Assembly (NCBI RefSeq): GCF_004339675.1
Contig: NZ_SLVM01000001.1
Span: forward strand, 124,001-188,000
Length of the DNA stretch: 64,000 bases
Direction of reading: 5' to 3'
From: Rhodovulum steppense
Lineage (GTDB): Bacteria; Pseudomonadota; Alphaproteobacteria; Rhodobacterales; Rhodobacteraceae
Below are positions 8,890-58,664 of the stretch, in pieces. The stretch's first letter is position 1. Each line of letters opens with the position of its first letter. The notes under the pieces are model-generated. The model was not told where the DNA came from. It ran no database searches and saw only the letters and a list, made by a program, of their open reading frames with translations. The position numbers and the translations under genes were made by a program.

Positions 8890-10374
<1,485 letters not shown>

Positions 10375-29140: not shown

Positions 29141-29210
29141 GGCGGGTCCTTTCCTTCGGGCCAGACTGCCCGCAAAGGGTTAACGCCGGGCGGCGGGACC
29201 GTGCGGGGGT

Positions 29211-29631: not shown

Positions 29632-29655
29632 TCGCCAAGGCATTGAGAATTCAGC

Positions 29656-29684
29656 AAAAGGGCGCCCCTCGGGGGTGCCCTTTT
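29656..29684 (+). terminator. Rho-independent terminator of the cold-shock gene
   Basis: A stem of AAAAGGGCGCCCC with GGGGGTGCCCTTTT, short loop, one internal G-T pair, ends in TTTT. It lies 25 bp after the csp stop codon. Confidence 0.85.
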
Positions 29685-29705
29685 CGCATTGTCCCGCAGC
29701 CCGCG

Positions 29706-29734
29706 TTGACCGGAAACCGGACTCGGTGTAGGCG
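29706..29734 (+). promoter_or_regulatory. Candidate promoter of the TRAP operon
   Basis: TTGACC (29706-29711), 17-bp spacer and TAGGCG (29729-29734). The -35 is good and the -10 weak. It lies just after the csp terminator and about 90 bp before dctP. Confidence 0.35.
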
Positions 29735-29821
29735 AGAGCGGGGTGACAGGGGACGCCCGAGGGGACCGCGCGCGGACGGCCTGGCCCGCGCCGAACCGTG
29801 CTTCGGACAGGGGGGATATCC

Positions 29822-44774: not shown

Positions 44775-46196
44775 CTAGAGGATCGGCGCGAAAAGCCGCG
44801 CCACGCATGCGGCGCTGCGGTGCAACGGGTTCGCCGCCTCGGCCAGCCTTGTGGTGTGGGGTTGGCTGCGGGCGAAATCGGCCTCCAGCATCGCGGCGGC
44901 CGTCCGGGCGAAATCGTGCTCGAAGACCAGCGCCGTCACCTCGAAATTCAACCGGCAGGACCGGTTATCGAGGTTCACCGTACCGACCGAGGCCATCGCC
45001 TCGTCCACCACCAGGACCTTCTGGTGCATGAACCCGTCGCTATAGCGGTAGATGCCCACCCCGGCCTCCAGCATCTCGTCGAAATAGGCAAAGGCGGCCA
45101 GCCAGACCAGCCAGTGATCGCGCCGGGCCGCGACAAGGATGCGCACATCCACCCCGCGCAGCGCGGCCAGCGACAGCGCGGACAGGATGTCGGTATCGGG
45201 CACGAAATAGGGCGAGGCGATCCAGATGCGGTGCTGCGCGGCATGGATCGCGTTGCAGAAATACAGGCTTCCGGTCTCCAGCCGGTCGGCGGGACCGGGA
45301 GCGACGATCAGGACGTCGAGATCCTGCGCCACGGCGGGGGGCTGCCAGTCGAGATCCAGCCGTTCCTCGGTGGCCCAGAACCAGTCCTCGGCAAATATCA
45401 GTTGCAACTGGGCGACCGCCGGGCCGGATATCGCCAGATGGGTGTCGCGCCAGCGCCCGATGCGCGCGTTGCGCCCCATGTATTCGTCCCCGACATTGTG
45501 CCCGCCCAGAAAGCCCTCGCGCCCGTCCACCACGACGATCTTGCGGTGGTTGCGGAAATTCACCTGGAACCGGCTGTGCGGGCGGCGCAGCGAGTGGAAA
45601 TCGGCCACGACCACGCCGGCCTCGCGCAGCGCGGCGTTGAACGCGGCGGGCAGGCGGTGGCTGCCCAGCGCGTCGTAGAGCAACCGGACCGTGCAGCCCG
45701 CCCGCGCCCGCGCGATCAGACGGCGCTGCAACTCGCGGCCCAGATCGTCGTCGCGCAGGATATAGGTCTGCACCAGAACGAAGCGTTCGGCCCGGTCGAT
45801 GGCCTCGAAGATCGCCGCATAGGTCGCATTCCCGTCAACCAGCAGGCGCACCCCGTTTCCGGAAACCGCGCGCAGGCCCGCAATCGCCTCGAAACCTGCC
45901 AGCGCGCGTTGCAGATCCTTCGGCAGCGTAGCGGTGTCGGTGTGGCGGGCCGTCTCGAAATCCGGCAGTGTCGCGATCGAGATCTGCGAGGACAGCCGCG
46001 CGGTCATGTAGCCCGGCAGCCGCCAATGGCCGAGGAACAGGAAGATCGGCAGCGCCAGATAGGGGGCGGCGATCAGGAACACCACCCAGCCCACCGCGCC
46101 CTGCGGCGTGCGCGAGATCCGGATCGCCCGAAGCGCCGCCCAGATCGCCGCGGCCTCGAGCGCCAGCACAAGGACGGGAATGAGAACCTCCAGCAT
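44775..46196 (-). CDS. cls: Cardiolipin synthase-like phospholipase D protein
   Basis: A 473-residue inner-membrane enzyme. Two N-terminal transmembrane helices are followed by two PLD domains, each with an HKD motif: NHRKIVVVDGREGFLGG (near residue 218) and MHQKVLVVDEAMASVGTVN (near residue 398). It would condense two phosphatidylglycerols to cardiolipin. Length and layout fit bacterial ClsA. It is followed by no obvious partner; the EEP gene lies upstream on the same strand with a 57-bp gap. Confidence 0.93.
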   Translation of the reverse strand: MLEVLIPVLVLALEAAAIWAALRAIRISRTPQGAVGWVVFLIAAPYLALPIFLFLGHWRLPGYMTARLSSQISIATLPDFETARHTDTATLPKDLQRALAGFEAIAGLRAVSGNGVRLLVDGNATYAAIFEAIDRAERFVLVQTYILRDDDLGRELQRRLIARARAGCTVRLLYDALGSHRLPAAFNAALREAGVVVADFHSLRRPHSRFQVNFRNHRKIVVVDGREGFLGGHNVGDEYMGRNARIGRWRDTHLAISGPAVAQLQLIFAEDWFWATEERLDLDWQPPAVAQDLDVLIVAPGPADRLETGSLYFCNAIHAAQHRIWIASPYFVPDTDILSALSLAALRGVDVRILVAARRDHWLVWLAAFAYFDEMLEAGVGIYRYSDGFMHQKVLVVDEAMASVGTVNLDNRSCRLNFEVTALVFEHDFARTAAAMLEADFARSQPHTTRLAEAANPLHRSAACVARLFAPIL

Positions 46197-46253
46197 GGAA
46201 CGATGCTGGCCCCGGGCCGAGCGGAAGGCAAGCGCAGGGTGGTCGCGGGGTGC

Positions 46254-47003
46254 TCAGCCAGCCGCCGCCATGTCGGCCCAGATCGGCAGGTGATCGGAAC
46301 TGACCCGCGCGCGCGGGCTTTCATGGACCCCCGCCGCAGCCAGTGTCAGCCCGCGCCCATGCGCGATCCGGTCAAGCCCGGCACGCGGGCGGCTGGCGTG
46401 ATAGGTCTTGCCGGGCGCGACGACCCGAAAGCGGTCCGCCAGCGGCTCGAAGCCGCGATCCTCGGACCATTCGTTGAAATCGCCCAGGATCACGGTGCGC
46501 GCGCTTTCATTCTCGCAGAACCGCGCGCCGATGGTTTCGAGCTGGCGCCGCCGCCAGCGCCTGAGCAGCGACAGATGCACGCCGACCAGCGTGATCGCGC
46601 GCCCGTCCGGCTGGCCGATCCGCACCATGACCGCGCCGCGCGGCTCAAGCCCCGGCAGGGTGATCCGCTCGCTGGCCGTGACGGCGGTGCCGCGGCGCAC
46701 CAGGACCGCATTGCCATGCCAGCCGAGGCTGACGCCGTTCTGGGCCAGATCGACGACAACCAGATCGGTCTCGCGCTCGATCAGCATGCGCGGCAGCGCC
46801 GCGGGCCGGTCGCCGAGACGCTTGTCCGCCTCCTGCAGGACGACCGCATCGGCGCCGATCTCGTTGATTACGTCGAGCACGCGCCCGGCGTCGCGCTTCC
46901 AGTCGAGGCCGACCGCCTTTCGGATATTGTAGCTTGCGACGCGCAACGCCCCCCCGCCGACGGCGGACGTGGTGCCATGACACTGGGCTGGATGAGGCGG
47001 CAT
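46254..47003 (-). CDS. Endonuclease/exonuclease/phosphatase family protein
   Basis: A 249-residue EEP-fold hydrolase. Motifs: the N-terminal SYNIRKAVGLD strand, a metal-binding Glu in VVLQEADKR, GDFNEWSEDRG and the C-terminal SSDHLPIWADM. It resembles the small EEP proteins found next to cardiolipin synthases; the substrate could be a phospholipid head group or nucleic acid. It is in the same direction as cls with 57 bp between, so probably co-transcribed. The ATG at 47003 is tentative because the frame is open to 47450. Confidence 0.88.
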   Translation of the reverse strand: MPPHPAQCHGTTSAVGGGALRVASYNIRKAVGLDWKRDAGRVLDVINEIGADAVVLQEADKRLGDRPAALPRMLIERETDLVVVDLAQNGVSLGWHGNAVLVRRGTAVTASERITLPGLEPRGAVMVRIGQPDGRAITLVGVHLSLLRRWRRRQLETIGARFCENESARTVILGDFNEWSEDRGFEPLADRFRVVAPGKTYHASRPRAGLDRIAHGRGLTLAAAGVHESPRARVSSDHLPIWADMAAAG

Positions 47004-47379
47004 GGATGAGGCAGGCACCGGATGCGGGTCGGCTAGAATTATCCCTTCAAAGGTAGGCTTGACGGGGACAAAAAACAACCACCGCGCGCATCCCGAACCG
47101 ACCTCACCGTAGACGCAGCGCAGAAATCGGGCAGATTCGCCGGGAACCGGCCCGAATGCGTCCTGAACCGTTGCGAAACGCGAACCCGTCCGGGGTCCTG
47201 CTCGGCTTTGACTCCGCAGATGCTGCGAGACCACCCCGCACTTTCCCGATTTCCGCCACAATCGCCCCGGTCGAAGCCATGTTTTGGTCCAGCTTATCGG
47301 GAACACTCGCCGCGCAATCCCGAAGTCAAGGTGTCTTCCGCACCCGCTGGATCCCGAATCGCGCAACCAGGCCGCCAAG
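47004..47379. other. Non-coding divergent region between the EEP gene and the kinase cluster
   Basis: This 376-bp stretch separates two divergently transcribed groups and must hold promoters for both, but no unambiguous -35/-10 pair is seen. It is somewhat less GC-rich than the flanking genes, contains a run of A (about 47070-47076) and no repeat or RNA structure I can name. Confidence 0.5.
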
Positions 47380-48675
47380 ATGAACGCAGCGCCCCACATC
47401 ACGATGCCCCTGCCACCGGATGGCCCGGCAGAGGAGTTGCAGCCCGGCACGGAGCTTCTGCATGGGCAATACAGGATCGAGCGTTTCCTGAACTCCGGCG
47501 GGTTCGGCCTGACCTATCTGGCCCGCGACAGTCTCGATCGGACCGTGGTCATCAAGGAGTGCTTCCCCGAGTCGTTATGCATGCGTGCCGGGCTGGACGT
47601 GCATGCCCGCTCGCGCAGCTACAGCCGGGAATTCCATTCGATCGTCACGCTTTTCATCGACGAGGCACGGCGTCTCGCGCGGCTGAACCACCCGGGCATC
47701 GTCGGCGTGCATCAGGTATTCTCGGACAACACGACGGCCTATATGGCCCTCGACTATATCGAAGGCAAAAGCCTGCTCGAGATCATCGAGGATCCGCGCG
47801 AGACGCCCTCGCCCGAGGCGGTGCAGGAGATCCTGATCAAGGTTCTGGACGCGGTGGCCTTCGTTCACGACAACAGCCTGCTGCACCGCGACATCTCGCC
47901 CGACAACATCCTGATCGACCTGACCGGCAACCCGGTGCTGATCGATTTCGGCGCGGCAAGAGAACGCGCGACGCGCAGCAGCCGGGTGCTCTCGCGCATG
48001 CAGGTGGTCAAGGACGGCTATTCGCCCCAGGAATTCTACGTCGCGGGCATCCGGCAGGGACCGCCCAGCGATCTCTACGCGCTCGCCGCAACCTTCCACC
48101 ATCTGATCACCGGCGAGGCGCCGCCCGACAGTCAGCGGCGCATGGCTGCACTCGCTGCGAACGAACGCGACCCCTACCAACTGCTCAAGGGAAGGGTTCC
48201 GGGCTACGCGCCCGCCTTCCTCGGTGCGATCGACAAGGCGCTGAACGTGGTGCCGAAGGAGCGGCCGCAATCGGCGCATGAATGGCTGGCGATGATGGAG
48301 ACCGGCCCGCGGCAGGTGACCGAAGGGCGCGTCCTTGAAATGGACGAGGACGTGATGATGTCGATCTCGCGGCTGGTCGAAGAGACGAACCGCGCGGTTA
48401 TGGAAGCCCGCCAGAGATCCGATCACGAGGGGCGAGCGAAACCGATCGAACCGCCGAAACTGCCCGAACGCAAGCCCACCTTCGCCTGGCGATCGCTCTA
48501 TGACGACGAGGAGGAGGACGCGGGTGTGGCCAGCCAGTTCGACACGAGCCCGCCCGGGGCCGAGGCCGAGTCGGCAGTCAGCCCGCGGCGGCCCAAACGA
48601 CGCGGCCACCGTCCCCGCCCCGGACGGTTCGGCCTGTTGCTTGGTCTGGCTCGCAGACTTGCCGCACGACCCTGA
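47380..48675 (+). CDS. Hanks-type Ser/Thr protein kinase
   Basis: A 431-residue cytoplasmic kinase. Gly-rich loop NSGGFGLTY (38-46), ATP-anchoring Lys59 in VVIKECFPE, alpha-C Glu96, catalytic loop HRDISPDN (169-176) and DFGAAR (189-194) are all intact, so it should be active. The C-terminal part (residues about 305-431) is a disordered acidic then basic linker, ending in an Arg-rich amphipathic tail (RFGLLLGLARRLAARP) that might bind membrane. It is the first gene of a same-strand cluster that supplies an FHA reader, a PP2C phosphatase and GTPases. Start 47380 is the first Met that fits; the frame is open to 47284. Confidence 0.93.
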   Translation: MNAAPHITMPLPPDGPAEELQPGTELLHGQYRIERFLNSGGFGLTYLARDSLDRTVVIKECFPESLCMRAGLDVHARSRSYSREFHSIVTLFIDEARRLARLNHPGIVGVHQVFSDNTTAYMALDYIEGKSLLEIIEDPRETPSPEAVQEILIKVLDAVAFVHDNSLLHRDISPDNILIDLTGNPVLIDFGAARERATRSSRVLSRMQVVKDGYSPQEFYVAGIRQGPPSDLYALAATFHHLITGEAPPDSQRRMAALAANERDPYQLLKGRVPGYAPAFLGAIDKALNVVPKERPQSAHEWLAMMETGPRQVTEGRVLEMDEDVMMSISRLVEETNRAVMEARQRSDHEGRAKPIEPPKLPERKPTFAWRSLYDDEEEDAGVASQFDTSPPGAEAESAVSPRRPKRRGHRPRPGRFGLLLGLARRLAARP

Positions 48676-48723
48676 CAGGTCGCGCAACCACCGCAGAAAC
48701 CCAGAGGCACGGAAGGCCGAGGC

Positions 48724-49854
48724 ATGAAATTCCTCAGACGCAAGACCGGCGAGAAACCGGACGCCGACGATTTCAATGACTATGTCGAGCCGTTTCCCCC
48801 GCGTCGTCGCGACATGCCCGCCCCCCTCGATACAGGGGCCACCGGGGCACCGCGCGCCGCATCGCGGGCCGTGACACGGGCCATCCATTCGCCGCTCCGG
48901 GATGCCGAGGCGTTTCGCGAACGGTTGCGCGACCTCGACGTCGACCCCAAGGACGACCTCCCCGACGACCCTTGCGATGGCGCCCCGGACGCCCCGGAAG
49001 ATGAATATGCCCGGGGACCGGGGCAGTGGCCCACCGAGGGGACCGCGCTGCCCGGGCACATGCCGGTCTTTCAAACCGCCGCAAATGCGGCAGTTGATCC
49101 TTCGAGACCGGTTCTGTTCCCCGGCGAGGATCAGGGCGGCGCCCGGGACGAGACACCGCGGCCCCATCCGGTGGCGGGCACCGGCGACGAGCGGCTCCAG
49201 CCCTCGGCCAACGGTGCCCCGTCCTCACCCGCTGTCGCCAACGCCCGCGCAGGAAGGCCAGAATCGTTCGGTGAGGCGACGCAACAGCATGGCATGGCGC
49301 CATCAGACCCCGACCCCAGTATCGACGGCATCGCCACCTTCGAGGCCCCTCCGCCCGCCGCGGGCCGCGCAGGCCCCGGGGCGGGTCGCGCCCGCACTCG
49401 TCTTCTGGGCTTCGGCCAGGCCGAAGACCCCGCGGTGGATCCGTTCGCGCGGGATGCGGCCCCAGCCCCATTGGCGGGTACCGTACCGTTCTTTCCCGTC
49501 GGCTGGCTGGTGGTCGTCGACGGCCCCGGGCGCGGCGCCCATTTCACCCTTTTCAACGGTGTCGCGCAGATCGGACGCGGTGCCGACCAGACCGTACGGC
49601 TGGACTTCGGCGACACGTCGATCTCGCGCTCGGGTCACGCGTTGCTGGCCTATGACGACGAGGAGGGCCGGTTCTTCCTCGGCTCGGGCGGCAAGGTGAA
49701 CATCGTTCGCCTGAACGGTCGACCGCTGCTTAGCACCGAGGAAATGTCTGATCGCGACGTCATCCGCATCGGCGAGACCACGCTGCGCCTTGTTGCCTTC
49801 TGCGGACCCGATTTCACCTGGTCGACGGAACGGCGCGATGCCGACATCGGATGA
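48724..49854 (+). CDS. FHA domain protein with long disordered N-terminus
   Basis: A 376-residue protein. Residues 1 to about 250 are Pro/Ala/Asp-rich and without predicted fold. Residues about 261-360 form a forkhead-associated domain: GRGADQTVRLDF, the phosphothreonine-binding SISRSGH (299-305) and LNGRPLL with Asn331. It should read phospho-Thr marks, presumably from the kinase encoded 48 bp upstream; Thr and Ser residues in its own N-terminal tail may be substrates. It overlaps the PP2C gene by 17 bp. GGAAGG precedes the ATG. Confidence 0.92.
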   Translation: MKFLRRKTGEKPDADDFNDYVEPFPPRRRDMPAPLDTGATGAPRAASRAVTRAIHSPLRDAEAFRERLRDLDVDPKDDLPDDPCDGAPDAPEDEYARGPGQWPTEGTALPGHMPVFQTAANAAVDPSRPVLFPGEDQGGARDETPRPHPVAGTGDERLQPSANGAPSSPAVANARAGRPESFGEATQQHGMAPSDPDPSIDGIATFEAPPPAAGRAGPGAGRARTRLLGFGQAEDPAVDPFARDAAPAPLAGTVPFFPVGWLVVVDGPGRGAHFTLFNGVAQIGRGADQTVRLDFGDTSISRSGHALLAYDDEEGRFFLGSGGKVNIVRLNGRPLLSTEEMSDRDVIRIGETTLRLVAFCGPDFTWSTERRDADIG

Positions 49855-50785
49855 TCTGCGCCTGGACGCCGCCACCGGCATCGGCCAGGGTCGGCGCGAG
49901 CATCAGGAAGATGCCATCATCGCCGATTTCACGATCGGCGGCGATATCGGCCTTGCGGTGCTGGGCGACGGCATGGGTGGCCACGCGGCGGGCGATGTGG
50001 CCAGCCGGATCGCGGTGACCGAGGTTTTCAGCGAACTCAAACTTCGCAGCGACGATCCAGATCGCTTCATCCGCTGCGCCCCCGGCATCCTGCGCGATGC
50101 AACGCGCGAGGCCAATGGCAGCATCGCGGCGCATGTGCGCAGCCATGCCGACACTGCTGGCATGGGCACGACGCTTGTGGCGCTTGCGGTGGCGCGGGAT
50201 CGTCTGTTCTGGATCTCGGTCGGGGATTCGCCACTGTTCCTGTTTCGCGACGGACAGTTGCATCAGATCAACGAGGACCATTCGCTCGCGCCCCAGATAG
50301 ACGGCATGATGCGTCTGGGCCTGCTGAGCGTCGACGAGGCGCGCCGCCATCCTGACCGCAACTGCCTGACCTCGGCGCTGACCGGGGCCGAGATCCATCA
50401 GATCGACTGCCCCGACCGGCCGATCGACCTTACGGTGGGCGACATCATCGTGGCGGCCAGCGACGGGCTCGACTCGATCGACCGGGAGCGGCTGCGCTCG
50501 CTTCTGGTCCAGTATCGGCGGCGTTCTAGTGCCGAGATCGCCAACGCTTTGTTTTCCGAACTCGAAGCGCTGGCCGACCCCGATCAGGACAATGTCTGCT
50601 TCAGCGTGATCCGGGTCGTCGCCCGTGGCTGCCAGCCCGAGGTCAAGCCGCACCGCCCCAGCCCGGCCGAACGAACCCGCAAGCGCGCCGATCTGGCCGT
50701 TGCACGCAACCGCGAGGCAGGGCCGCTACGGGCGCTGCCACTTGCCGTGCGCTTTTTTCTGAGCTTCGGGAGACGTGTCCAATGA
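49838..50785 (+). CDS. PP2C-family Ser/Thr protein phosphatase
   Basis: A 315-residue PPM/PP2C phosphatase. Metal-binding and catalytic motifs are intact: REHQEDA (20-26), VLGDGMGGHA (41-50), GMGTTLVAL, VGDSPLFLF, AASDGLD and DNVCFSV. It would erase the marks written by the upstream kinase. A basic C-terminal tail (residues about 275-315, RKRADLAVARNREAG, ending FFLSFGRRVQ) follows the domain. The start at 49838 lies inside the FHA gene; the stop overlaps the next start (ATGA). Confidence 0.94.
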   Translation: MPTSDDLRLDAATGIGQGRREHQEDAIIADFTIGGDIGLAVLGDGMGGHAAGDVASRIAVTEVFSELKLRSDDPDRFIRCAPGILRDATREANGSIAAHVRSHADTAGMGTTLVALAVARDRLFWISVGDSPLFLFRDGQLHQINEDHSLAPQIDGMMRLGLLSVDEARRHPDRNCLTSALTGAEIHQIDCPDRPIDLTVGDIIVAASDGLDSIDRERLRSLLVQYRRRSSAEIANALFSELEALADPDQDNVCFSVIRVVARGCQPEVKPHRPSPAERTRKRADLAVARNREAGPLRALPLAVRFFLSFGRRVQ

Positions 50786-51936
50786 GTACGACGTTCGACC
50801 GGGGTGTTCTTGCGGATCTCGAAGAGACCCTCGCGGCGAGTGATCTGCCGGGAAAGGCACGCGACTATGGAAAGCGGCTGCTGGCGCGGCTGCGCGTGCC
50901 GCTGCGGCTGGTCGTGACCGGACCGGCCGGAAGCGGCAAGTCCGAACTGGCACGCCTGCTCTGCGGTCATGCCGCGCCGACCGTCGTCACCGGGCCGGGC
51001 GAGCCTTCCGAAACGCCCTCGGCGCTGTTTTGCAACCTCGTGGTGATCGAATTGGGGCTTCCTTCCCCCGGCGGCGGTTTTCAAAGCGCGGGTGCGATCG
51101 AGCAGACCTCGCCCGACATCATCCTGTGGTGCACCCAGGGCTTTGCCCATGACGAGGCGCAGATCTGGGCGCGGGTGCCTGACAACCTGAAGGACCATGC
51201 CTTTCTGGTGTTAACCAGAGCCGATGAGTTGATGTGCATGGGGGTACTGGAGGAGCGGCTGGACGATCTGCGCGAGGTGGTCGAGACCGAGTTCCATAGT
51301 CTTCTGCCGATCGCCACCGCGCAAGCGGCCGCCGCCATGGCCAGCACGGAGACTGCCGACCGGGCGCTGCTTGCCCGAAGCGGGGCGACGGCCCTGTTCG
51401 AGGCGCTTTCGCGCATGATCGAACAGGGGCGCAGCGCCGACCTGGACGCCGCCAGCTTGTTCGTCCGCCGCCACAGCCAGGCGGCGCTTCACACAAGGCC
51501 ACAGACCCGGCCGCTCGATGCCCCGCCCGGAATGGCTCCGGTTGAGATGACCAATCGGAACGGCCGGGCCGAGATGCCCCAAAACGGTGCCACGGACGCG
51601 CCCGCCTGCGCCCCTGCACTGCCGGATCCCGAGGTCGTCGCGTCGGCCCGCGCGATCCGGTTGCTGGACGGGCATAGCGGGGATTTTCCGGACGCAATCG
51701 GCGAGAACGACCCGGCCGAAATCGAGGGGTTGCTCGCGCTCTGCGCGCGAACCACCGAGGAACTGGGCGAGATCATCGAGGATGCGGGGCTTGTCGGCGA
51801 TCTGGCCGAGGATATCCTGGAGGCCAACGAGATGCTGCTTCTGCTGACGCTTGAGCAGGACGAAACCGCCGCCGCCGATGCGGTCACGCTTCTGTTGCAG
51901 TTGCGGCGCGGCTTCGAAGCGCGACTCGCCGCCTGA
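50782..51936 (+). CDS. P-loop GTPase-like protein with degenerate G3 motif
   Basis: A 384-residue protein. The Walker A is GPAGSGKS (47-54) and a G4-like TRAD follows in LVLTRADEL (145-148). The expected DxPG (G3) is replaced by VIELGLP (88-94), so GTP hydrolysis is doubtful. The segment IILWCTQGF corresponds to VIWCTHATQ in the intact GTPase encoded at 54188-55156, so the two look like paralogues. Residues about 240-384 are a linker and an acidic helical region. It is translationally coupled to the PP2C gene. It may be a regulatory pseudo-GTPase. Confidence 0.8.
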   Translation: MSTTFDRGVLADLEETLAASDLPGKARDYGKRLLARLRVPLRLVVTGPAGSGKSELARLLCGHAAPTVVTGPGEPSETPSALFCNLVVIELGLPSPGGGFQSAGAIEQTSPDIILWCTQGFAHDEAQIWARVPDNLKDHAFLVLTRADELMCMGVLEERLDDLREVVETEFHSLLPIATAQAAAAMASTETADRALLARSGATALFEALSRMIEQGRSADLDAASLFVRRHSQAALHTRPQTRPLDAPPGMAPVEMTNRNGRAEMPQNGATDAPACAPALPDPEVVASARAIRLLDGHSGDFPDAIGENDPAEIEGLLALCARTTEELGEIIEDAGLVGDLAEDILEANEMLLLLTLEQDETAAADAVTLLLQLRRGFEARLAA

Positions 51937-52090
51937 TCGGGAGGCAGAGCCAAGGTAAGGTCATGGGATCGCCACGCTCAGGACATCTTGACCGGAAAAA
52001 TTGTTTCGGTGGCCGCGACAACCAGCATGAGCGCAGCCGATTCCGACCGGGACCGAGCGGGTTCCGCACAGTCAAGAGGGAGGCCACAAG

Positions 52091-54163
52091 GTGACGCTGG
52101 ACGAACGCGCAGAAATGGCGTTGGAGGCCGCCCGTCCGCGGACCGCCAATCCGGGACTGCTGGCGCTGGGCATGGACGGGTTCACCGGCTTTATGGAACG
52201 GATGGACCAGATGCGTCGGACTCTAGCTGATCTGACCGAGCTTGGCGATGCGACCGTCGCGCGCGGCGCGGCCCGGCTTGCTAATCAACTCGAGTTGGTC
52301 GAGCCGTCAATCACCTTTATTGGCCAAGTCAAGGCCGGCAAGACGTCACTCATCAACACGATGGCGGGCTGGCCTGGACTTCTGCCTGCGGACGTGAACC
52401 CCTGGACCTCGGTGGTGACCTCGATCCATGTCTCGCCCTCATGGACAACCGGCGCGGCCGGCGCCAATTTCCGCTTTTTCGATCCGCAGGAATGGGACCG
52501 GCTGATCGAGAAGGGCGGACGTATGGGCGAACTGGCCAGCCGCGCCGGCGCCGAGGAAGAACTCGAAAAGGTGCGCCGCCAGGTCGAGCGGATGCGTGAG
52601 AAATCCAAGGGACGACTGGGCCGTCGGTTCGAGATGCTGCTCGGGCAGGAGCACAGATACGGCACCTTCGACGAGGAACTGGTGGAACGCTATGTCTGCC
52701 TCGGCGATGATTTCGAGGATGACGAGGGCGAGCCCTTCGACATGCGCGGACGCTTTGCCGACATCACGAAATCGGCTGACCTGCATGTGACCCATGCCAA
52801 TGTGCCGTTCAAGCTGTGCCTGCGCGACACGCCCGGGGTCAACGACACCTTCCTGATGCGCGAGCAGATCACCATCGGCGCGATCCGCGACAGCCGACTT
52901 TGCGTGCTGGTGCTGTCGGCACACCAGGCGCTTTCGACCGTCGACATGGCACTGATCCGGCTGATCTCGGCGGTCAAGGCGCGCGAGGTGGTGATCTTTG
53001 TCAACCGCATCGACGAGTTGTCGGACCCCGCCGCCCAGATCACCGAAATCCGCGACTCGATCCGCGCAACGCTGAAACGGCACGAGGGACCGGCCGACGC
53101 GCCGATCCTGTTCGGCAGCGCGGTCTGGGGCCAGCATGCGTTGGAAGGAACGCTGTCGCAGATGAACGAGGCCAGCCGCAAGTCGCTGCTCGCCCTTGCG
53201 CGCACCGAATGCGTCGCGAGCGAAGGGCCGCAGGACGCGATCGAAGGCGTCTGGCGGCTGTCGGGCATCCCGGCGCTTTACCGTGCCCTGGGCGAACGTG
53301 TTGCCGAGGGCGTGGGCGGCGAGGCGATCGACCGGATCGCCCGCAGCGTCGGCAACCTCGCCCGCGGCGTGACCGCGGCGCATCTTTCGATTGGGCTCGC
53401 CGTTGCAGATGGTCAGGCCGTGGCGCTCGACTCCGACCGGATTTCGCGCGAGCTCGACCGGATCGAACAACGCGCGACCGTCGCGCTGGAAACCGCCTTC
53501 GCCGCCCAGCGTGAAGCGTTCTGCGTTCGGCTGGATCGGTCGCATCACAATTTCCTGGACCGTGCGACCGCCGCGCTGATCGAGCACCTGGAGAAACACG
53601 GCGAGGGAACGGTCTGGTCTTACGAACCGACGGGCCTGCGGCTCTTGCTGCGCTCAGCCTGTCAGGTCTTCGGCAAGCGCATGCAGGACGAGGCCAGGGC
53701 GATCCTGGAGACGACCGCCACCGATGTCGCGGCGACCTACCGCGCCGCTTTCGGGCTGACCGAGGCGCTGGCCATCGAGCCGCCCGAACCACCCCGACTG
53801 AACCCGCCGGTCGCCATCGCCCAGACCATCGCGCTGGATGTCAAGGGTACCTGGTGGCGCCGCTGGTGGCTGCGCCGCAAAGGCTATCGCAGCTTCGCGG
53901 CCGAGTTCTACAAGATGATTCGCGAGGAGACCGCGCCGATCCTGGACGAGTTGAGTCATGACCATGCCGAGGCAATCCGTGCCGACCTGCTGCAAACGCT
54001 GGCTGGATTTCTGGAGGAACAGCGCGAGATCGTGACAGCGCTGGCCGAGAAGGCGGCGCCCACCGCGCAGGATCTGGGCGCGGCACTCGGCTATCAGGCG
54101 CGCGCGGACCGGTTGCGACAGATCGAAGCCGCCGTTGCTACGATGCGCCAGGAAGCGGCCTGA
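52091..54163 (+). CDS. Dynamin-like GTPase
   Basis: A 690-residue large GTPase. G1 is GQVKAGKTS (78-86), G2 Thr near 106 in NPWTSVVT, G3 DTPG (246-249) and G4 in FVNRIDEL (NRID, a variant of NKxD). The insert before G3 (residues about 135-225) is charged and helical. The C-terminal half (about 330-690) is long helices, as in bacterial dynamin-like proteins. It contains a compact Trp/Arg patch, WWRRWWLRRK (588-597), that resembles a membrane-inserting paddle. It is likely to act on the inner membrane. It starts at GTG 52091 with GGGAGG upstream. Confidence 0.88.
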   Translation: MTLDERAEMALEAARPRTANPGLLALGMDGFTGFMERMDQMRRTLADLTELGDATVARGAARLANQLELVEPSITFIGQVKAGKTSLINTMAGWPGLLPADVNPWTSVVTSIHVSPSWTTGAAGANFRFFDPQEWDRLIEKGGRMGELASRAGAEEELEKVRRQVERMREKSKGRLGRRFEMLLGQEHRYGTFDEELVERYVCLGDDFEDDEGEPFDMRGRFADITKSADLHVTHANVPFKLCLRDTPGVNDTFLMREQITIGAIRDSRLCVLVLSAHQALSTVDMALIRLISAVKAREVVIFVNRIDELSDPAAQITEIRDSIRATLKRHEGPADAPILFGSAVWGQHALEGTLSQMNEASRKSLLALARTECVASEGPQDAIEGVWRLSGIPALYRALGERVAEGVGGEAIDRIARSVGNLARGVTAAHLSIGLAVADGQAVALDSDRISRELDRIEQRATVALETAFAAQREAFCVRLDRSHHNFLDRATAALIEHLEKHGEGTVWSYEPTGLRLLLRSACQVFGKRMQDEARAILETTATDVAATYRAAFGLTEALAIEPPEPPRLNPPVAIAQTIALDVKGTWWRRWWLRRKGYRSFAAEFYKMIREETAPILDELSHDHAEAIRADLLQTLAGFLEEQREIVTALAEKAAPTAQDLGAALGYQARADRLRQIEAAVATMRQEAA

Positions 54164-54187
54164 ACGTGACAGGGAAGCAAGATAGCC

Positions 54188-55156
54188 ATGACTGACACCC
54201 ATCCCGATGAGTTCGCCATGATCGGCGCCGCCTTGGCGGCCGTGAACGACGCGACGCGACCGGACCCGCACCCCGTCCCCGCACCGGTGAAAAAGCCCAG
54301 CATCGCGCTGATGGGCGAATTCAGCGCAGGCAAGAGCACCCTGTCGAACCTGCTGATCGGTCAGAACCCGCTGCCCGTGAAGGTGACCGCGACCCAGCTT
54401 CCGCCGGTCCGCATCTCCCATGGCTCGGGACAGGCGTGGCGCGAGGATCGCGCGGGCGTGATACACCCGCTCGAGATCGACCAGCTTTGCGAGGTCTCGC
54501 CCACCGATACCCGTCTCGTTCAGATCTTTGCCGAAGCCGAGTTGCTGACGCTCTGCGATCTGATCGACATGCCGGGGATCTCGGATCCCAACATGGATGC
54601 GGGCGTCTGGCAGGACGTGATCGGGCAGGCCGACGGCGTGATCTGGTGTACCCATGCCACCCAGGCCTGGCGCCAGAGCGAAGCCGCCGTCTGGGAGGAA
54701 CATTCGGAGCGGCTTGCGAAGACGAGCATCCTTCTGCTTACACGCTGCGACAAGCTGCTGACCGAGGGAGACCGCGAGCGCGTACTCAAGCGTGTCCGAC
54801 GCGAGACAGAAGGCCTTTTCGCCGCAAGTTTCCCTATCTCGCTGACCCGAGCGGTCGAGGGGCGCGATGACCCGGTCCTCTGGGGCGCAAGCGGCGCCGA
54901 GGCGTTCAGCCTGCATTTCATCGAGCTGCTTTACGCCTTGCAGGGCCACGACCCGCAAGGGGCCGGGTCCGATCCGCGGCCTGCCTCTGTCTCGCTGACC
55001 CCGTCCTGTTTGGCAGCGCAGCCCGAGTACGACGAGGTGGTTGTCGACACTGGGGAAGAAAACAGCGTCCGCCCGCAACGTGTGACACTTGAGCGCGCGC
55101 CCAGACGCGCGACCCGCCCGGTCGATGGCGAGACCCGAAGGCTGGGTCAGTTCTGA
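54188..55156 (+). CDS. Dynamin-superfamily/Era-like small GTPase
   Basis: A 322-residue GTPase. G1 is GEFSAGKST (43-51), G3 DMPGI (127-131) and the G4-like TRCD in LLTRCDKL (185-188). The GEFSAGKST form is typical of dynamin-related proteins. Residues 255-322 are a variable, probably disordered tail rich in Arg and acidic residues. It lies 24 bp downstream of the large dynamin-like gene, suggesting a heteromeric pair as in other bacterial dynamins. It shares the IWCT motif with the degenerate protein encoded at 50782-51936. Confidence 0.88.
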   Translation: MTDTHPDEFAMIGAALAAVNDATRPDPHPVPAPVKKPSIALMGEFSAGKSTLSNLLIGQNPLPVKVTATQLPPVRISHGSGQAWREDRAGVIHPLEIDQLCEVSPTDTRLVQIFAEAELLTLCDLIDMPGISDPNMDAGVWQDVIGQADGVIWCTHATQAWRQSEAAVWEEHSERLAKTSILLLTRCDKLLTEGDRERVLKRVRRETEGLFAASFPISLTRAVEGRDDPVLWGASGAEAFSLHFIELLYALQGHDPQGAGSDPRPASVSLTPSCLAAQPEYDEVVVDTGEENSVRPQRVTLERAPRRATRPVDGETRRLGQF

Positions 55157-55213
55157 CGGCGCGAGACCGTCGGCCGCAATCGGCCGGACTCCTCGGACCG
55201 GACCTGCTTCGCG

Positions 55214-55693
55214 ATGTCGGCGATCGCGGGATGCGTTTTGGTTATGGAAGGCGCCGAAATATCGACTAGACTGCGCGCGATGGTTCCAGCCGAACGAATA
55301 AAGTCTCTGCGCAGATCGACCCCTGGATGCCGGTCGCTTGTCTATGTCGACCTCAAGGCACGTCTCGTGCTGTGCAGCGATTCCGACCTCCCGGCCCCGC
55401 CGCAGGAGGCGCTGGATGCGCTTTGCCTGCGAGGGGCACGACTGCTGAGCGGGCCGGTCTGGGCAGCCGCAGAGGTGGCGCTGGCGGCGCCGGTCGTCGA
55501 AGCCGTGGCTTTGCAGGGCGGGCGGATCGAGGTCTTCCTGCGCACTCCCGCCGCGCCCGACGAGGCGCTGTGCGGGGTGCTGGAGGATAGTGCCGATCTG
55601 GAAGCGGCGCTGAACGTGCTTTGGTCGGGCATCGACGCGATTCTGCCCGAGGACACCGCCCGCACCGCGGACGCAACCCGGCGAGGGCCGTGA
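55214..55693 (+). CDS. Unknown protein, possible Roadblock/LC7 fold
   Basis: A 159-residue protein without clear homologues that I recognise. The predicted order helix, two strands (SLVYVDLKARLVLCSDS), helix (EALDALCLRGARLL), then strands (VVEAVALQGGRIEVFLR) and a final helix (LEAALNVLWSGIDAIL) is that of the Roadblock/LC7 fold, which includes MglB-type regulators of small GTPases. This is inference from pattern, not a motif match. The start is uncertain: ATG 55214, or 55244 (MEGAEISTRL). It ends one base before the next gene. Confidence 0.55.
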   Translation: MSAIAGCVLVMEGAEISTRLRAMVPAERIKSLRRSTPGCRSLVYVDLKARLVLCSDSDLPAPPQEALDALCLRGARLLSGPVWAAAEVALAAPVVEAVALQGGRIEVFLRTPAAPDEALCGVLEDSADLEAALNVLWSGIDAILPEDTARTADATRRGP

Positions 55694-55694
55694 G

Positions 55695-56441
55695 ATGGGT
55701 GATCTGGACAGGCTCAACAGCAAGCTCGCAAAGCTGAAGGGCAAGGACGACGGACAAATCCGGGCAAGCGCCACTGACAGCATCGTGTCCGCCCTGCTGA
55801 CCGAGATCGAGGAGACCATCCTGCCCCGCGAGATGATCCTGACCAACGAAAGCGGCAACCGCTTCGTGCTGGTCGTGGCAGGGCGCCGGTTACTGGCGCT
55901 GAGCGGTCACGGCGCGGAGGAGGAGGGATCGGAGGGCAGAGAAGATGCCGCCGCACGGATCATAGCCGTCTTCAGGGGTCCGTTTCGTACTTTCCTGGAC
56001 AACGCGCGCGAGATCAGCATAGATGCCGCCCGCCCGCCGAACCGGATCGACCCCACCATGATCGGTTGCTCGGTAGAGACCCTGACCGCCGCCCTCGTCG
56101 GCCCCGGCCAGGCGTCGGTGGCCGACCCGGTCGCGGCCGCCTGCGATCTGGCCGTTGCTGGGCTGCGCCTCGTCGGCGGGGATGTCGTCGGACGCAGCGG
56201 CGATGCCGCGCACCTCGCCCGGCTGGAGCAGTTCGCTGGAGTCGGCGGGGCGGGGCTTGGTCAGTTGGCGGGTGACGACACGGACGCCCCGTGCTGTGTG
56301 TTCCTGTCCGACGCCGGACGCGAGGACGCGATCCTTGCGCGGATCGCATTCCGCGGCGCAGCAGCGCTGATCCTTGCCCCGCCCGAGGCGCGCGCCGAAC
56401 TGATCGCGCTGTGCCGCGAACCGATTCCCGCAGCCGGATAA
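55695..56441 (+). CDS. Unknown protein, last gene of the kinase/GTPase cluster
   Basis: A 248-residue cytoplasmic protein, not recognised. It begins with a helix rich in Lys and Leu (LNSKLAKLKGK), then a beta-rich segment (LPREMILTNESGNRFVLVV, AGRRLLALS), and ends in a second alpha/beta part (CCVFLSDAGREDAILARIAF, then GAAALILAPP). No signal peptide, membrane helix or catalytic motif is seen. It begins one base after the stop of the preceding gene, so is co-translated with the possible Roadblock protein. Downstream is the cobalamin riboswitch of an unrelated operon. Confidence 0.7.
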   Translation: MGDLDRLNSKLAKLKGKDDGQIRASATDSIVSALLTEIEETILPREMILTNESGNRFVLVVAGRRLLALSGHGAEEEGSEGREDAAARIIAVFRGPFRTFLDNAREISIDAARPPNRIDPTMIGCSVETLTAALVGPGQASVADPVAAACDLAVAGLRLVGGDVVGRSGDAAHLARLEQFAGVGGAGLGQLAGDDTDAPCCVFLSDAGREDAILARIAFRGAAALILAPPEARAELIALCREPIPAAG

Positions 56442-56524
56442 TCCTGACCATCCCGCCGGGCGGCTGCCCTCCCCGCCGTGCCACCCCTTGACAGCCCTCG
56501 ACGAGGGAACTAGGCCCGAGCCGT

Positions 56525-56705
56525 CTTGGTTCATCCGCGTCCTTGGGCGCGGGTGATGAAAAGGGAACACGGTGCGGCCTCCGGGCCCATGCCGTGGCTG
56601 CCCCCGCAACTGTAGGCGGAGAGCGCGGCTGACAACGCCACTGGGCCCCCGCGCCCGGGAAGGCCAGCCAAGCGACGACCCGCAAGCCAGGAGACCTGCC
56701 AGGAC
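56525..56705 (+). ncRNA. Cobalamin riboswitch
   Basis: The conserved AdoCbl aptamer elements appear in order: AAGGGAACACGGTG near 56560, TGCCCCCGCAACTGT near 56599, the B12-box core GCCACTG at 56637-56643, GCCCGGGAAGGCC, and the 3' CCAGGAGACCTGCC at 56687-56700. It lies upstream of btuB and would shut off its expression when cobalamin is plentiful. The ends given are approximate. Confidence 0.93.
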
Positions 56706-56746
56706 GATCACCCGGTCCCGTCGCGGGGTGCGACGCGGGCAGCGGT

Positions 56747-56784
56747 CCTTCCGCAGTGGTGACGCCTCACCGTCTGCGGGAAGG
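56747..56784 (+). promoter_or_regulatory. Leader hairpin downstream of the cobalamin aptamer
   Basis: CCTTCCGCAG (56747-56756) pairs with CTGCGGGAAGG (56774-56784) with one bulged G and a 17-base loop. It lies between the aptamer and btuB and may be part of the riboswitch expression platform. No T-run follows. Confidence 0.45.
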
Positions 56785-56861
56785 CATGCCTTTCCAAGGA
56801 CTTGCAGTCAAAACAGGCCAGCCGGACGCACCGGCGGCCAGCGAACGGACACGGGACAGAC

Positions 56862-58664
56862 ATGATTCGCAAGACAATCGCCCTGGGACTTGGCGTGACC
56901 GCGCTCACCCCCCTTGCCGCATATGCGCAGCAAAGCCTGCTGCTGGACGAGATCACGGCCACCGCAAGCCTCGTGCCGATCGAGATCAACCGCACCGGCA
57001 CCACCGTCGAGACGCTGGACGCCGCCGACATCGCCCAGGGCGGGCTGAGCATCGGACAGACCCTGGCGCTGTTGCCCGGCGTGTCGATCACCACGAATGG
57101 CGGGTTGGGGGCCACCTCGACCCTGCGGCTGCGGGGTCTTGGGGGCAGCTATATCGGCGTGCGTATCGACGGTATCGACATGACCGACCCCTCCAGCACC
57201 CAGACCGCGTTCAATTTCGGCACGCTGACCGCCGGGATGCCCGACCGGATCGAGGTGCTGAAGGGGACGCAATCGGCGCTTTATGGCTCGAATGCCGTTG
57301 CCGGTGTGGTCGACATCACCACATGGCGGCCCGATGCGCCGGGCTTCTCGGGGCGGGCCAATGTCGAGGCGGGCAGCTTCGACACCCGGGCCGCCACGGT
57401 CAATCTGGGTCAGAAAGGCGAACGCGGCGAAGTCGCGCTGACCTTCTCGCGGCTGACTTCCGAAGGCTTTTCGGCGCGTACCTCGGATACCGAGAAGGAC
57501 GGCTTCGACCAGACGCAGATGGTGCTGTTTGCCGCCTATGACCTGACGGACGACCTTCGCATCGGCTTTTCGGCACTCTATTCCGATGGCACTTCGGAAT
57601 TCGATCGGTCGACCGCCGATCCCAGCGGCGAGATCGACCAGACCCGCCGCGGCTTGCGCAGCTTTGCCGAGTTTGCGACGGGTGCGATCGAGCACGAGAT
57701 CGCGCTGTCCTGGGTCGAGACCGAGCGCTTCGATGCGGGCGGTTTTACCCAGCGTTTCGTCGGCGAGCGCACCCGGCTGGACTATCTCGGCCGCGTGGAC
57801 CTGAGCACCGATCTTACGCTGGCCTTCGGTGCGGACTGGACCGAGGAAAAGGCCACGCTGGACGGCGTGCGCTACGACGCCGACAGCGCTGCCGCGTTCG
57901 GCGAACTGCAATATGCCGTCTCGCCCGCGCTCGACGTGGCGCTGTCGCTGCGCCATGACAGCTATTCCGATTTCGACGACCAGTTGTCGGGCCGCGCCGC
58001 GCTGGCCTGGCGGATGCGGGATGACGTGATCCTGCGGGCGGTGGTCGGCACCGGCTACCGGGCGCCCTCGCTCTACGAACGCTTCGGTCCCTTCGGCAGC
58101 GCCACGCTGGAGCCCGAGAAAAGCCGCAGCGCCGAAATCGGGATCGAGAAACGCTATGGGACGGACAGCTTTGCCAAGGCCACGGTTTTCCATACGGAAA
58201 TCGACAACCTGATCGACTTCGATTCCGGCACGAGCACCTATAACCAGGTGCCCGGCACCACCACCAGCAAGGGGATCGAACTGTCGGGCCGCTACGCGCT
58301 TAGCGACCGCGTCGCAATGTTCGGTGCCTACACCTATACCGACGCCGCCAACCCGGCAGGGCGCATGGTCCGGGTGCCGCGCCATGACCTGAGCCTCGGC
58401 GTCGAGGCCGGGCTGACCGACCGGCTGGACGCCCAGATCGGGATTCAGGCCGTGGCCGACCGGACCGATACCAATGACTGGCCCAACCCGCCCTCGGGCA
58501 TTGCGGATTACACGCTGGTCAATCTGGGCCTGTCCTATGCGGTGAACGACAGGGCCACAGCCTATCTGCGCGTCGAGAACCTGTTCGACGAAAGCTACGA
58601 ACCGGTGCGCGGCTACAATGGCGCCGGGCGCTCTGTCTTCGTTGGCCTGCGTGCGTCCTTCTAG
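56862..58664 (+). CDS. btuB: TonB-dependent vitamin B12 receptor
   Basis: A 600-residue outer-membrane receptor. A signal peptide (cleaved after AYAQ, about residue 21) is followed by the TonB-box-like LLLDEITATAS, then the plug domain with LRLRGLGGSYIGVRIDGID and DRIEVLKGTQSALYGSNA. A beta-barrel ends in Phe (VFVGLRASF), as required for outer-membrane insertion. The riboswitch upstream and btuF directly downstream (overlapping) identify the substrate as cobalamin. BtuB family length is normal. Confidence 0.95.
   Translation: MIRKTIALGLGVTALTPLAAYAQQSLLLDEITATASLVPIEINRTGTTVETLDAADIAQGGLSIGQTLALLPGVSITTNGGLGATSTLRLRGLGGSYIGVRIDGIDMTDPSSTQTAFNFGTLTAGMPDRIEVLKGTQSALYGSNAVAGVVDITTWRPDAPGFSGRANVEAGSFDTRAATVNLGQKGERGEVALTFSRLTSEGFSARTSDTEKDGFDQTQMVLFAAYDLTDDLRIGFSALYSDGTSEFDRSTADPSGEIDQTRRGLRSFAEFATGAIEHEIALSWVETERFDAGGFTQRFVGERTRLDYLGRVDLSTDLTLAFGADWTEEKATLDGVRYDADSAAAFGELQYAVSPALDVALSLRHDSYSDFDDQLSGRAALAWRMRDDVILRAVVGTGYRAPSLYERFGPFGSATLEPEKSRSAEIGIEKRYGTDSFAKATVFHTEIDNLIDFDSGTSTYNQVPGTTTSKGIELSGRYALSDRVAMFGAYTYTDAANPAGRMVRVPRHDLSLGVEAGLTDRLDAQIGIQAVADRTDTNDWPNPPSGIADYTLVNLGLSYAVNDRATAYLRVENLFDESYEPVRGYNGAGRSVFVGLRASF

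Follow-up and report, generated by a model that had tools for sequence, protein, structure and literature searches.

Bacterial dynamins are widespread, and in Streptomyces they act in sporulation division; how they are activated is poorly known. Genes for a kinase (PpkA), an FHA protein (Fha) and a phosphatase (PppA) are carried by type VI secretion system (T6SS) loci. Actinobacterial conservons comprise a histidine-kinase-like protein (CvnA), a Roadblock protein (CvnB), a DUF742 protein (CvnC) and a GTPase (CvnD). Among bacterial dynamins, Cj-DLP1 and Cj-DLP2 of Campylobacter jejuni are encoded by adjacent dynamin-family genes (PDB 5owv; available part of PMC6104087), and DynA, described in the same part as a single fused protein, is a dynamin-family protein of Bacillus subtilis membrane surveillance that delays phage lysis (available part of PMC8844932). 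A literature search of limited depth returned no description of the cassette reported here and, in the literature found, no dedicated phospho-regulator of bacterial dynamins.

An eight-gene cassette in conserved order

The window, a 64,000-nucleotide stretch of the Rhodovulum steppense genome, contains eight plus-strand genes at positions 47380–56441 (Table 1); all eight open frames of the original prediction were recovered where it had placed them. We refer to them in order as K (Ser/Thr kinase), F (FHA protein), P (PP2C phosphatase), g4 (degenerate GTPase), Dyn (dynamin-like protein), g6 (GTPase), g7 (predicted Roadblock protein) and g8 (fast-evolving protein). The successive intergenic distances from K to g8 are 48, −17, −4, 154, 24, 57 and 1 bases. 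Two starts are ambiguous, Dyn beginning at GTG 52091 or ATG 52115 and g7 at ATG 55214 or ATG 55280; relatives of g7 are mostly shorter, with a median of 127 aa for the chosen starts. K is preceded by an endonuclease/exonuclease/phosphatase gene and a gene for a PLD protein, both on the opposite strand.

Table 1. Positions of the cassette genes and of selected features within them (window coordinates)
Feature	Position	Strand	Basis
K: Hanks-type Ser/Thr kinase, 431 aa, basic C-terminal tail	47380..48675	+	Pfam Pkinase 3e-29
F: FHA protein, 376 aa	48724..49854	+	GarA-type FHA structures nearest among solved structures (profile)
F, C-terminal FHA-like domain	about 49513-49794	+	N-terminal remainder long, without domain match
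F, Thr225 codon, candidate phospho-switch site	49396..49398	+	Thr in 74/75 relatives
P: PP2C-type phosphatase, 315 aa	49838..50785	+	PP2C_2 8e-13
g4: degenerate GTPase, conserved C-terminal segment, 384 aa	50782..51936	+	Nearest 5owv chain C (DLP2)
Dyn: dynamin-like protein, 690 aa	52091..54163	+	Dynamin_N 1e-10
Dyn, Trp-rich basic motif W588-W593, candidate membrane-binding tip	53852..53869	+	Trp conservation
g6: GTPase-domain-only partner, 322 aa	54188..55156	+	Dynamin_N 1e-11; 5owv chain C nearest
g7: predicted Roadblock/LC7-fold protein	55214..55693 (domain about 55277-55663)	+	AlphaFold2 model
g8: fast-evolving protein, 248 aa	55695..56441 (C-terminal half about 56121-56438)	+	AlphaFold2 model

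Conservation was surveyed in the best 80 of 497 related loci. All eight genes are present in 70 of these, and nine of the ten incomplete loci run into contig ends. The genes present follow the canonical order in 79 loci; the sole exception is L071, and trimmed coordinates there also place g7 before g8. With the chosen starts, g6 directly follows Dyn in all 80 loci at a gap of at most 406 bases, F and P overlap in 70/75 and P and g4 in 67/75. Four or more flanking genes were available for 75 loci, which represent 26 genomic contexts; across these the order is maintained at mean protein identities of 24–52%, and the eight proteins have correlated pairwise distances (r 0.68–0.92, 51 loci). Since the order is kept in the surveyed relatives, the eight genes are linked beyond chance.

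According to the original prediction, a discrete system would be supported if five or more of the eight genes occurred together across Rhodobacterales in the absence of T6SS genes, and this was found in the surveyed loci; the contrary outcome it had named, failure to co-occur in relatives, was absent. A chance neighbourhood of unrelated operons might draw on the 154-base gap between g4 and Dyn in the window, which could accommodate more than one promoter, but the order kept across divergent proteins and many contexts refutes it as far as linkage goes, the parts stay linked even in rearranged variants, and we regard it as practically negligible. We conclude that this is a discrete cassette with a gene order common to many related marine bacteria.

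Dyn was found in 28 of 120 genomes sampled from the family and not found in the other 92, and plasmid copies of the cassette occur in 18 records. The Ruegeria THAF33 variant has two dynamin pairs, g7 and g8, followed by K-F-P; the B32 variant has the same rearranged order by annotation, and in the Leisingera S132 variant the halves of the cassette are on opposite strands. In the even family sample, 8 of the 28 carriers have variant loci only, and for seven of these eight the stretches retrieved around the loci contained no recognised K, F or P. At a further locus (L131), a canonical-type g4-Dyn-g6-g7 set has no K-F-P next to it. Thus, Dyn-g6 can occur with no phospho-module close by.

The phospho-signalling proteins

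The full phospho-signalling set that had been proposed, a kinase with its catalytic residues, an FHA reader and a PP2C phosphatase, held up in both residues and family matches. The VIK lysine, αC glutamate, HRD aspartate and DFG aspartate of K, which identify a Hanks-type kinase, are retained in 70–71 of 71 relatives, and the four metal-binding aspartates expected of a PP2C phosphatase are retained in P in 75/75. P also matches an Stp1-type NCBIfam model at 2e-42, below its cut-off. For F, the only Pfam match is to Yop-YscD_cpl (2e-5, below its cut-off), and Arg285, Ser301, Arg302, His305, Asn326 and Asn331 are invariant in 75/75.

F is like GarA and OdhI in combining an N-terminal part that has an invariant threonine with a C-terminal FHA-like domain; it differs in its longer N-terminal part and in the loop between SR and H, which is one residue longer than in GarA. 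The threonine, Thr225, is within a conserved basic motif (GRARTRLLGF in the window) upstream of the FHA domain, and the one relative that departs from it in the alignment has a gap. Our guess, from conservation, is that Thr225 would be the phosphorylation site of F.

Hydropathy indicated a likely transmembrane segment in 22 of 71 related kinases and none in the window's own K. Thirteen of these 22 have 346–530 aa beyond the segment, and of the six of these 13 that were scanned, four gave weak PDZ_6 matches, below cut-off. Variant clusters additionally encode a LysM protein and SBP_bac_3-like proteins, the latter below cut-off. In kinases that have no transmembrane segment, the tail does not exceed the preceding linker in amphipathicity. 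The kinase switch is probably envelope-sensing, the ectodomain and sensor links coming from relatives rather than from the window.

The GTPases and the predicted Roadblock-fold protein

Dyn and g6 both match Dynamin_N, in agreement with the dynamin-like GTPase and second GTPase originally proposed. In Dyn the G1–G4 residues are invariant in 80/80, and the nearest solved relatives are 5owv chain A (DLP1) and BDLP. Its Trp-rich motif pattern is present in all 80 copies (W588 in 79, W589 in 80, W592 in 78 and W593 in 80). The G1–G4 residues are likewise kept in 80/80 copies of g6, whose profile matches only the GTPase domain of DLP2 (5owv chain C, residues 64–276 of 614).

The same restriction to the DLP2 GTPase domain was seen for g4, which in Pfam gives only weak P-loop matches below cut-off and which matches g6 by profile at 99.8%. 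In an alignment of 78 copies, two of them incomplete, the P-loop is present in 62 and the DxxG (G3) motif in the aligned segment of 4; its absence from the other 74 bears out the description of g4 as degenerate. In a G-domain tree, g4 groups with the intact partner of the second dynamin from variant clusters, which suggests a route from an intact GTPase partner to a pseudo-GTPase inside a conserved operon.

The cassette resembles the Cj-DLP1/Cj-DLP2 pair in that Dyn and g6 are encoded next to each other, belong to the dynamin family and keep their GTPase motifs, and among solved structures 5owv chains come closest to Dyn, g4 and g6. It differs in that g6 and g4 correspond to the GTPase domain of DLP2 alone, that g4 has lost G3, and that kinase, FHA, PP2C phosphatase and Roadblock genes are added. 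The ‘dynamin pair’ of the original prediction therefore stands as adjacency of Dyn and g6, but not as two full dynamins with trunk and tip: g6, at 322 aa, is a GTPase domain only, and g4 is a pseudo-GTPase. Partners in variant loci are sometimes longer (583 aa in Ruegeria THAF33). Because g6 is without trunk and tip, the cassette is a variant of the DLP-pair kind rather than a DLP pair proper, and because g6 and g4 do not have the trunk of DLP2, the mechanism of that pair is not transferable whole.

No Pfam match and no PDB sequence-profile match better than E 0.15 was obtained for g7. Its AlphaFold2 model (mean pLDDT 87) has the α-β-β-α-β-β-β-α order of the Roadblock/LC7 fold and resembles 3kye (Z 17.0, rmsd 2.3 over 119) and MglB (Z about 15; Foldseek 2.5e-07). 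The earlier suggestion of a possible Roadblock/LC7 protein is borne out at this level, and g7 is a predicted Roadblock/LC7-fold protein. g8 also had no Pfam match; its model (mean pLDDT 86, pTM 0.63) has a C-terminal half that is weakly Roadblock/longin-like (best Z 7.0, rmsd 4.1 over 81), and profile comparison of g8 with g7 was negative (0.9% probability).

A predicted Roadblock fold encoded beside GTPases is shared with regulators of the MglA-MglB and Ragulator type, but the neighbours of g7 are dynamin-family rather than Ras-like or Rag GTPases. Conservons similarly hold a Roadblock gene and a GTPase gene within one operon, whereas here the GTPases are dynamin-family and the signalling is Ser/Thr rather than histidine. 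Identity with a conservon was rejected, no CvnA- or DUF742-type Pfam domain being detected in the eight proteins at E 1.

Proposed working and alternative explanations

Starting from the computed linkage, families, kept and lost residues, predicted Roadblock fold and transmembrane segments of some related kinases, we infer the interactions, the signal and the direction of signalling. We propose, at about even chances, a phospho-regulated Rhodobacteraceae dynamin system that responds to an envelope signal by reshaping, tethering or reinforcing the inner membrane, so that phosphorylation may control a dynamin there. A membrane-attached K would be activated by an envelope condition and would phosphorylate F, most likely at Thr225, producing a GarA-like switch that could be read by F's own FHA domain or by a partner; K might phosphorylate the GTPases as well, and P would reset the switch. 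F would act on the GTPase-domain subunits, the pseudo-GTPase g4 as a scaffold and the intact g6, and g6 would pair with the G domain of Dyn and govern its assembly. g7, perhaps with g8, could be a nucleotide-state platform for g6 and Dyn, as MglB is for MglA, and Dyn would be held on the inner membrane via its Trp-rich motif. Several results speak against this proposal: Dyn-g6 loci with no phospho-module close by, the missing DLP2 trunk in g6 and g4, the window's own K with neither a transmembrane segment nor a tail type of raised amphipathicity, the extra residue in the FHA loop, and ectodomain and sensor links that come from relatives.

The main rival to a kinase-controlled dynamin is phage defence, in which K would sense infection and either the dynamin would hold the membrane or delay lysis, or K would trigger growth arrest. 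The patchy distribution in the family, the plasmid copies and the 26 contexts all favour it, and PADLOC PD-T4-6 kinase models hit K at up to 4e-45, although such Hanks-kinase models may recognise numerous kinases of bacteria. PADLOC matches were weak for Dyn and g6 (LeoA/LeoBC) and for g4 (mad8). Precedents are a prophage kinase-kinase-phosphatase module that confers phage defence (available part of PMC11341870) and DynA, which shares with Dyn its family and a potential role in membrane protection but for which the available part of PMC8844932 describes no dedicated kinase operon. The flanks (up to three nearest genes per side, below 800 aa, from one locus per context; 132 genes) were mostly ordinary transport and metabolism genes with one GajB-like gene; no defence-island signature appeared among the 25 most frequent of the 148 Pfam and 45 PADLOC families, a tally without a control set. 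In addition, Dyn had no match in a phage collection at E 1e-5. On balance we consider phage defence rather unlikely. We think it unlikelier still that phosphorylation here runs a cell-shape, division or internal-membrane module of normal growth rather than stress. The Streptomyces dynamins are a precedent, and mreB-mreC-type genes lie downstream of the cassette in eight loci, of which seven carry the title Silicimonas or Boseongicola (Pfam confirmed one MreB; mreC was assigned by reading), but this context was seen in that one group alone. Dyn showed no association with photosynthetic membranes, a reaction-centre gene being present in 13 of its 28 carriers against 11.2 expected (p 0.51), and its absence from most of the sampled genomes indicates that it is no core growth gene.

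The presence of PpkA, Fha and PppA in T6SS loci could point instead to a threonine-phosphorylation module that became separated from a T6SS and drifted into the neighbourhood of GTPases, and full cassettes co-occur with TssC in 8 of 18 genomes against 4.2 expected (Fisher p 0.033, uncorrected; 120 genomes). Against such an origin, which we hold to be very improbable, no T6SS gene was seen in the flanks (among the 25 commonest of 148 families), and TssC, found in 28 of the 120 family genomes, was never found near the cassette. Ten genomes have both TssC and Dyn, and G062 alone has the two on one contig, separated by about 333 kb; the assemblies are drafts, and different contigs give no distance. 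A TssC match was absent in 36 of 49 carriers, which include some assemblies of the 120-genome sample, a rate like that of the family (92/120 without). The original prediction was right that no T6SS gene adjoins the locus, and adjacent T6SS core genes, which it had named as contrary evidence, were found nowhere they were looked for; the window's own genome does have a T6SS with a kinase beside it, on a different contig from the cassette (C4 and C1, respectively). Adjacent genes for a kinase, an FHA protein and a PP2C phosphatase are common to both systems, but the cassette has neither adjacent T6SS genes nor a dependence on a T6SS in the genome, and we rejected its identity with a T6SS regulatory locus.

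Returning to the phospho-regulated dynamin, we tentatively suggest that the cassette is the bacterial equivalent of phospho-regulated membrane remodelling in eukaryotes. A membrane-anchored kinase would read the envelope and a kinase-FHA-phosphatase switch would drive a dynamin, whose assembly would be set by three components: a GTPase-domain subunit, a pseudo-GTPase left over from a second dynamin pair that was lost, and a Roadblock platform. Were this reading true, the cassette would be a system of its own kind and, to our knowledge, the first known bacterial machine to join Ser/Thr phosphorylation, dynamins and a Roadblock protein. Within one short stretch, also on plasmids, the dynamin gene has as neighbours the genes for a kinase, a phospho-reader, a phosphatase, a pseudo-GTPase and a Roadblock protein, and phospho-regulation of a bacterial dynamin is therefore directly testable in harmless marine strains.

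Linkage of the eight genes in relatives

The eight genes of the original prediction are real and all lie on one strand. They encode a Ser/Thr kinase (K), an FHA protein (F), a PP2C phosphatase (P), a degenerate GTPase (g4), a dynamin-like protein (Dyn), a GTPase-domain-only partner (g6), a putative Roadblock protein (g7) and a fast-evolving protein (g8). We refer to this order on one strand as the canonical cassette and to K-F-P as the phospho-module. Domain-model searches identified K as a Hanks kinase, P as a PP2C phosphatase (Stp1 models nearest), Dyn and g6 as dynamin-family GTPases and g4 as a P-loop protein; the FHA-like match of F was weak, and its profile retrieved the FHA structures of GarA. 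No domain model matched g7 or g8; the parts for which a match was obtained all fall into known families. Pattern scans of window positions 46900-56900 found no promoter-like site, and terminator-like patterns were not in excess over shuffled sequences, an outcome without diagnostic value. From its sequence, we read the two-domain PLD protein upstream of K as cardiolipin-synthase-like.

Positions of the cassette, of other features in the window and of features in related loci (L numbers)
Feature	Sequence	Positions	Observation
Eight-gene cassette	window	47380-56441	
Two-domain PLD protein and endonuclease/exonuclease/phosphatase gene	window	44775-47021	minus strand; divergent, upstream of K
G+C dip	window	28001-30000	to 0.576; flanking 2 kb steps 0.62 and 0.69; possibly acquired DNA
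g4-Dyn-g6-g7 set, g8 also by profile	L131	1-6272	K-F-P not beside
Lone dynamin pair	L167 (genome G786)	7337-10821	sole out-of-family match at E 1e-12 in 398 phylum-sample genomes
g4 pseudo-GTPase of Leisingera S132	L064	12646-13881	annotated 'zeta toxin family protein'
Variant clusters, second dynamin pair or blocks face to face	L065; L066; L177	19183-29499; 13941-25913; 14992-30461	substrate-binding-annotated genes alongside, one with LysM

An even sample of 120 Rhodobacteraceae genomes was searched for Dyn relatives (E 1e-10) and the stretches around the matches were retrieved. A relative was found in 28 genomes, the window's own included: 18 carried the run K-F-P-g4-Dyn-g6, two had it interrupted by short contigs and eight had variant loci only. 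Over the best segment, the window Dyn shares 86-91% identity with the proteins of Rhodovulum strictum, R. euryhalinum, R. marinum and R. tesquicola, which fits a Rhodovulum-like organism. A second set, which shares some assemblies with the first, consisted of the closest 80 of 497 Dyn relatives from a wider scan and is therefore biased towards the canonical type. In these closest 80 of 497 loci, profiles matched Dyn and g6 in all 80, g4 and g7 in 79 each, g8 in 78, F and P in 75 each and K in 71. All eight genes were present in 70 of the 80 and the genes present followed the canonical order in 79, bearing out the expectation that they co-occur in relatives. The exception in order, L071, arose with ORFs taken from stop to stop; with trimmed coordinates g7 precedes g8 there as well. 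Nine of the ten incomplete loci reach contig ends, leaving L131 as the true exception, where an ORF that we read from its sequence as SDR-type lies directly upstream of g4 in place of P.

Where four or more flanking genes were called (75 loci), common neighbours define 26 groups, a count that hinges on the single-linkage criterion, and the internal order was retained throughout; the cassette moves as a unit. Across the 51 loci where single-sequence searches found all eight proteins, their pairwise distances correlate (0.68-0.92), with mean identities of 0.52 for Dyn, 0.51 for P, 0.49 for K, 0.48 for g6, 0.43 for F, 0.34 for g4, 0.33 for g7 and 0.24 for g8. The nearest flanking genes in the 26 contexts were mostly transporters and metabolic enzymes among the matches listed, as called by a GC3-based script rather than a gene finder and excluding genes of 800 aa or more. 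Downstream of the cassette, mreB-type and mreC-type cell-shape genes were seen in L081, L083, L085, L086, L091, L097, L101 and L106.

Eighteen plasmid records held a Dyn relative (Leisingera 12, Ruegeria 5, Rhodobacter 1), and a phage collection gave no Dyn match. Leisingera aquaemixtae R2C4 is one strain with a plasmid-borne cassette. The Dyn profile at E 1e-12 matched 2 of 337 genomes of the class, both from the window's family, and the g6 profile matched 9 of 398 genomes of the phylum, of which all but one (G786) belong to the family.

Conserved residues and predicted folds

Among the canonical relatives, the catalytic residues of K were retained in 70-71 of 71, the four Asp of P in 75 of 75, the FHA Arg, Ser, Arg, His and Asn of F in 75 of 75, and the G1-G4 residues of both Dyn and g6 in 80 of 80. 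For g4, the P-loop was found in 62 of 78 copies and the DxxG of the aligned segment in only four (two of the 78 are clipped by contig ends), in agreement with its earlier description as a degenerate GTPase. Residue T225 of F, within a basic motif N-terminal to the FHA domain, is Thr in 74 of 75 copies; by analogy with GarA we propose it as a candidate phospho-switch, although the FHA loop of F is one residue longer between SR and H. In Dyn, a Trp-rich basic motif (W588, W589, W592 and W593) is nearly invariant and is proposed as a candidate membrane tip.

A hydropathy threshold gives a likely transmembrane segment for 22 of 71 kinases. It is followed by 21-33 residues in nine and by 346-530 in 13 (L105, L108, L113, L118, L120, L121, L122, L135, L136, L138, L141, L144 and L147); four of the six long parts scanned gave weak PDZ_6 matches, all below cut-off. 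The remaining kinases, that of the window included, end mostly in a basic tail. In the 50 of 72 kinases without a transmembrane segment, tail and linker differ in charge (median +4.5 versus -2). We had expected an amphipathic C-terminal helix but discarded it as evidence: in the same 50 kinases, the median hydrophobic moment of the tail (0.42) does not exceed the linker value (0.45).

Profile searches of solved structures gave best E-values of only 0.15 for g7 and 0.10 for g8. The predicted model of g7 (pLDDT 87) has the Roadblock order of elements, and its best matches were a Streptomyces Roadblock/LC7 protein (Z 17.0), archaeal Roadblocks and MglB (Z ∼15; Foldseek 2.5e-07), so that the Roadblock assignment, at first given as possible, is supported by a predicted fold. 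As a candidate second Roadblock protein, g8 (model pLDDT 86, pTM 0.63) gave weak Roadblock/longin matches in its C-terminal half, with Z no higher than 7.0, and comparing its profile with that of g7 was negative.

Dynamin relations and variant clusters

The g4 and g6 profiles both retrieved DLP2 of the paired Campylobacter jejuni dynamin-like proteins (5owv chain C; 1e-12 and 2e-17, respectively), and that of Dyn retrieved DLP1 (5owv chain A, 2e-9) and the bacterial dynamin-like protein BDLP (2j68, 4e-9). A direct profile comparison shows g4 to be homologous to g6. When 60 G domains were placed in a tree, g4 joined the intact partners of the second dynamin from variant clusters (99/96) and g6 joined partners of the first; long branches were flagged under the midpoint root, making the placements of the longest rows unsure.

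In Ruegeria THAF33 the order is Dyn-g6-g7-g8-Dyn2-partner-K-F-P. Next come two genes with a substrate-binding protein annotation, one with a Pfam match to SBP_bac_3 below cut-off and the other with LysM; Ruegeria B32 has the same arrangement by annotation. Of two Leisingera S132 plasmids, one carries the canonical set; the second has Dyn-g6-g7-g8 facing g4-P-F-K, and two substrate-binding-annotated genes separate F from K there. The P-loop of an S132 g4 probably led to its toxin label, which would be a misannotation. Other loci contain one Dyn-partner pair or two, and no phospho-module was found within the retrieved stretch. The rearranged variants therefore indicate two blocks, K-F-P(-g4) and Dyn-g6-g7-g8, that often remain together, and the dynamin pair also occurs alone.

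The simplest reading of these sequences is that an ancestral form had two dynamin pairs and that the large protein of the second pair would have disappeared from the canonical cassette, its partner surviving as a pseudo-GTPase. The G-domain tree alone is compatible with either direction; gain of a second pair is unlikely because g4 has lost its G3 motif.

The 'dynamin pair' of the original prediction stands in that Dyn and g6 are both dynamin-family GTPases, but g6 is not a full DLP. For that reason we did not class the cassette as a DLP pair, and we regard it as a variant of the paired bacterial dynamin operons rather than a member. Among the papers listed from the openly licensed literature, none appears to describe dynamin combined with kinase/FHA/PP2C and Roadblock proteins. 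A less likely reading is that the cassette would be a kind of its own.

Alternatives and proposed role

The T6SS marker TssC occurs in 28 of the 120 family genomes. It was found in 10 of the 28 Dyn carriers against 6.5 expected (p 0.12), with a small excess among full cassettes (8 of 18 against 4.2; p 0.033, uncorrected). TssC and Dyn share a contig only in G062, ∼333 kb apart. In the second set, of which 50 of the 80 loci were submitted, TssC was present in 13 of 49 carrier genomes (some assemblies overlapping the first sample), and contig coordinates show that it cannot be within ∼35 kb of the cassette in these 13. The window's own genome has its T6SS, with an adjoining kinase, on a different contig (C4) from the cassette (C1). 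TssC was thus not found near the cassette in the 120-genome sample or the 49 carriers, and a detached T6SS module was rejected on this non-adjacency and on carriers that lack TssC. An association with photosynthetic internal membranes was likewise rejected (13 of 28 Dyn carriers against 11.2 expected).

The main rival is a role in phage defence, which we consider unlikely. The flanks of the 26 contexts carried no defence-island signature among the matches listed, a weak argument because the comparison had no control set. A role in growth or shape ranks after it and appears improbable.

Linkage, retained residues and the g7 fold were computed, and we infer every interaction and the signal. With moderate confidence, we suggest that the cassette would form an inner-membrane dynamin machine that is switched by phosphorylation and responds to an envelope signal.
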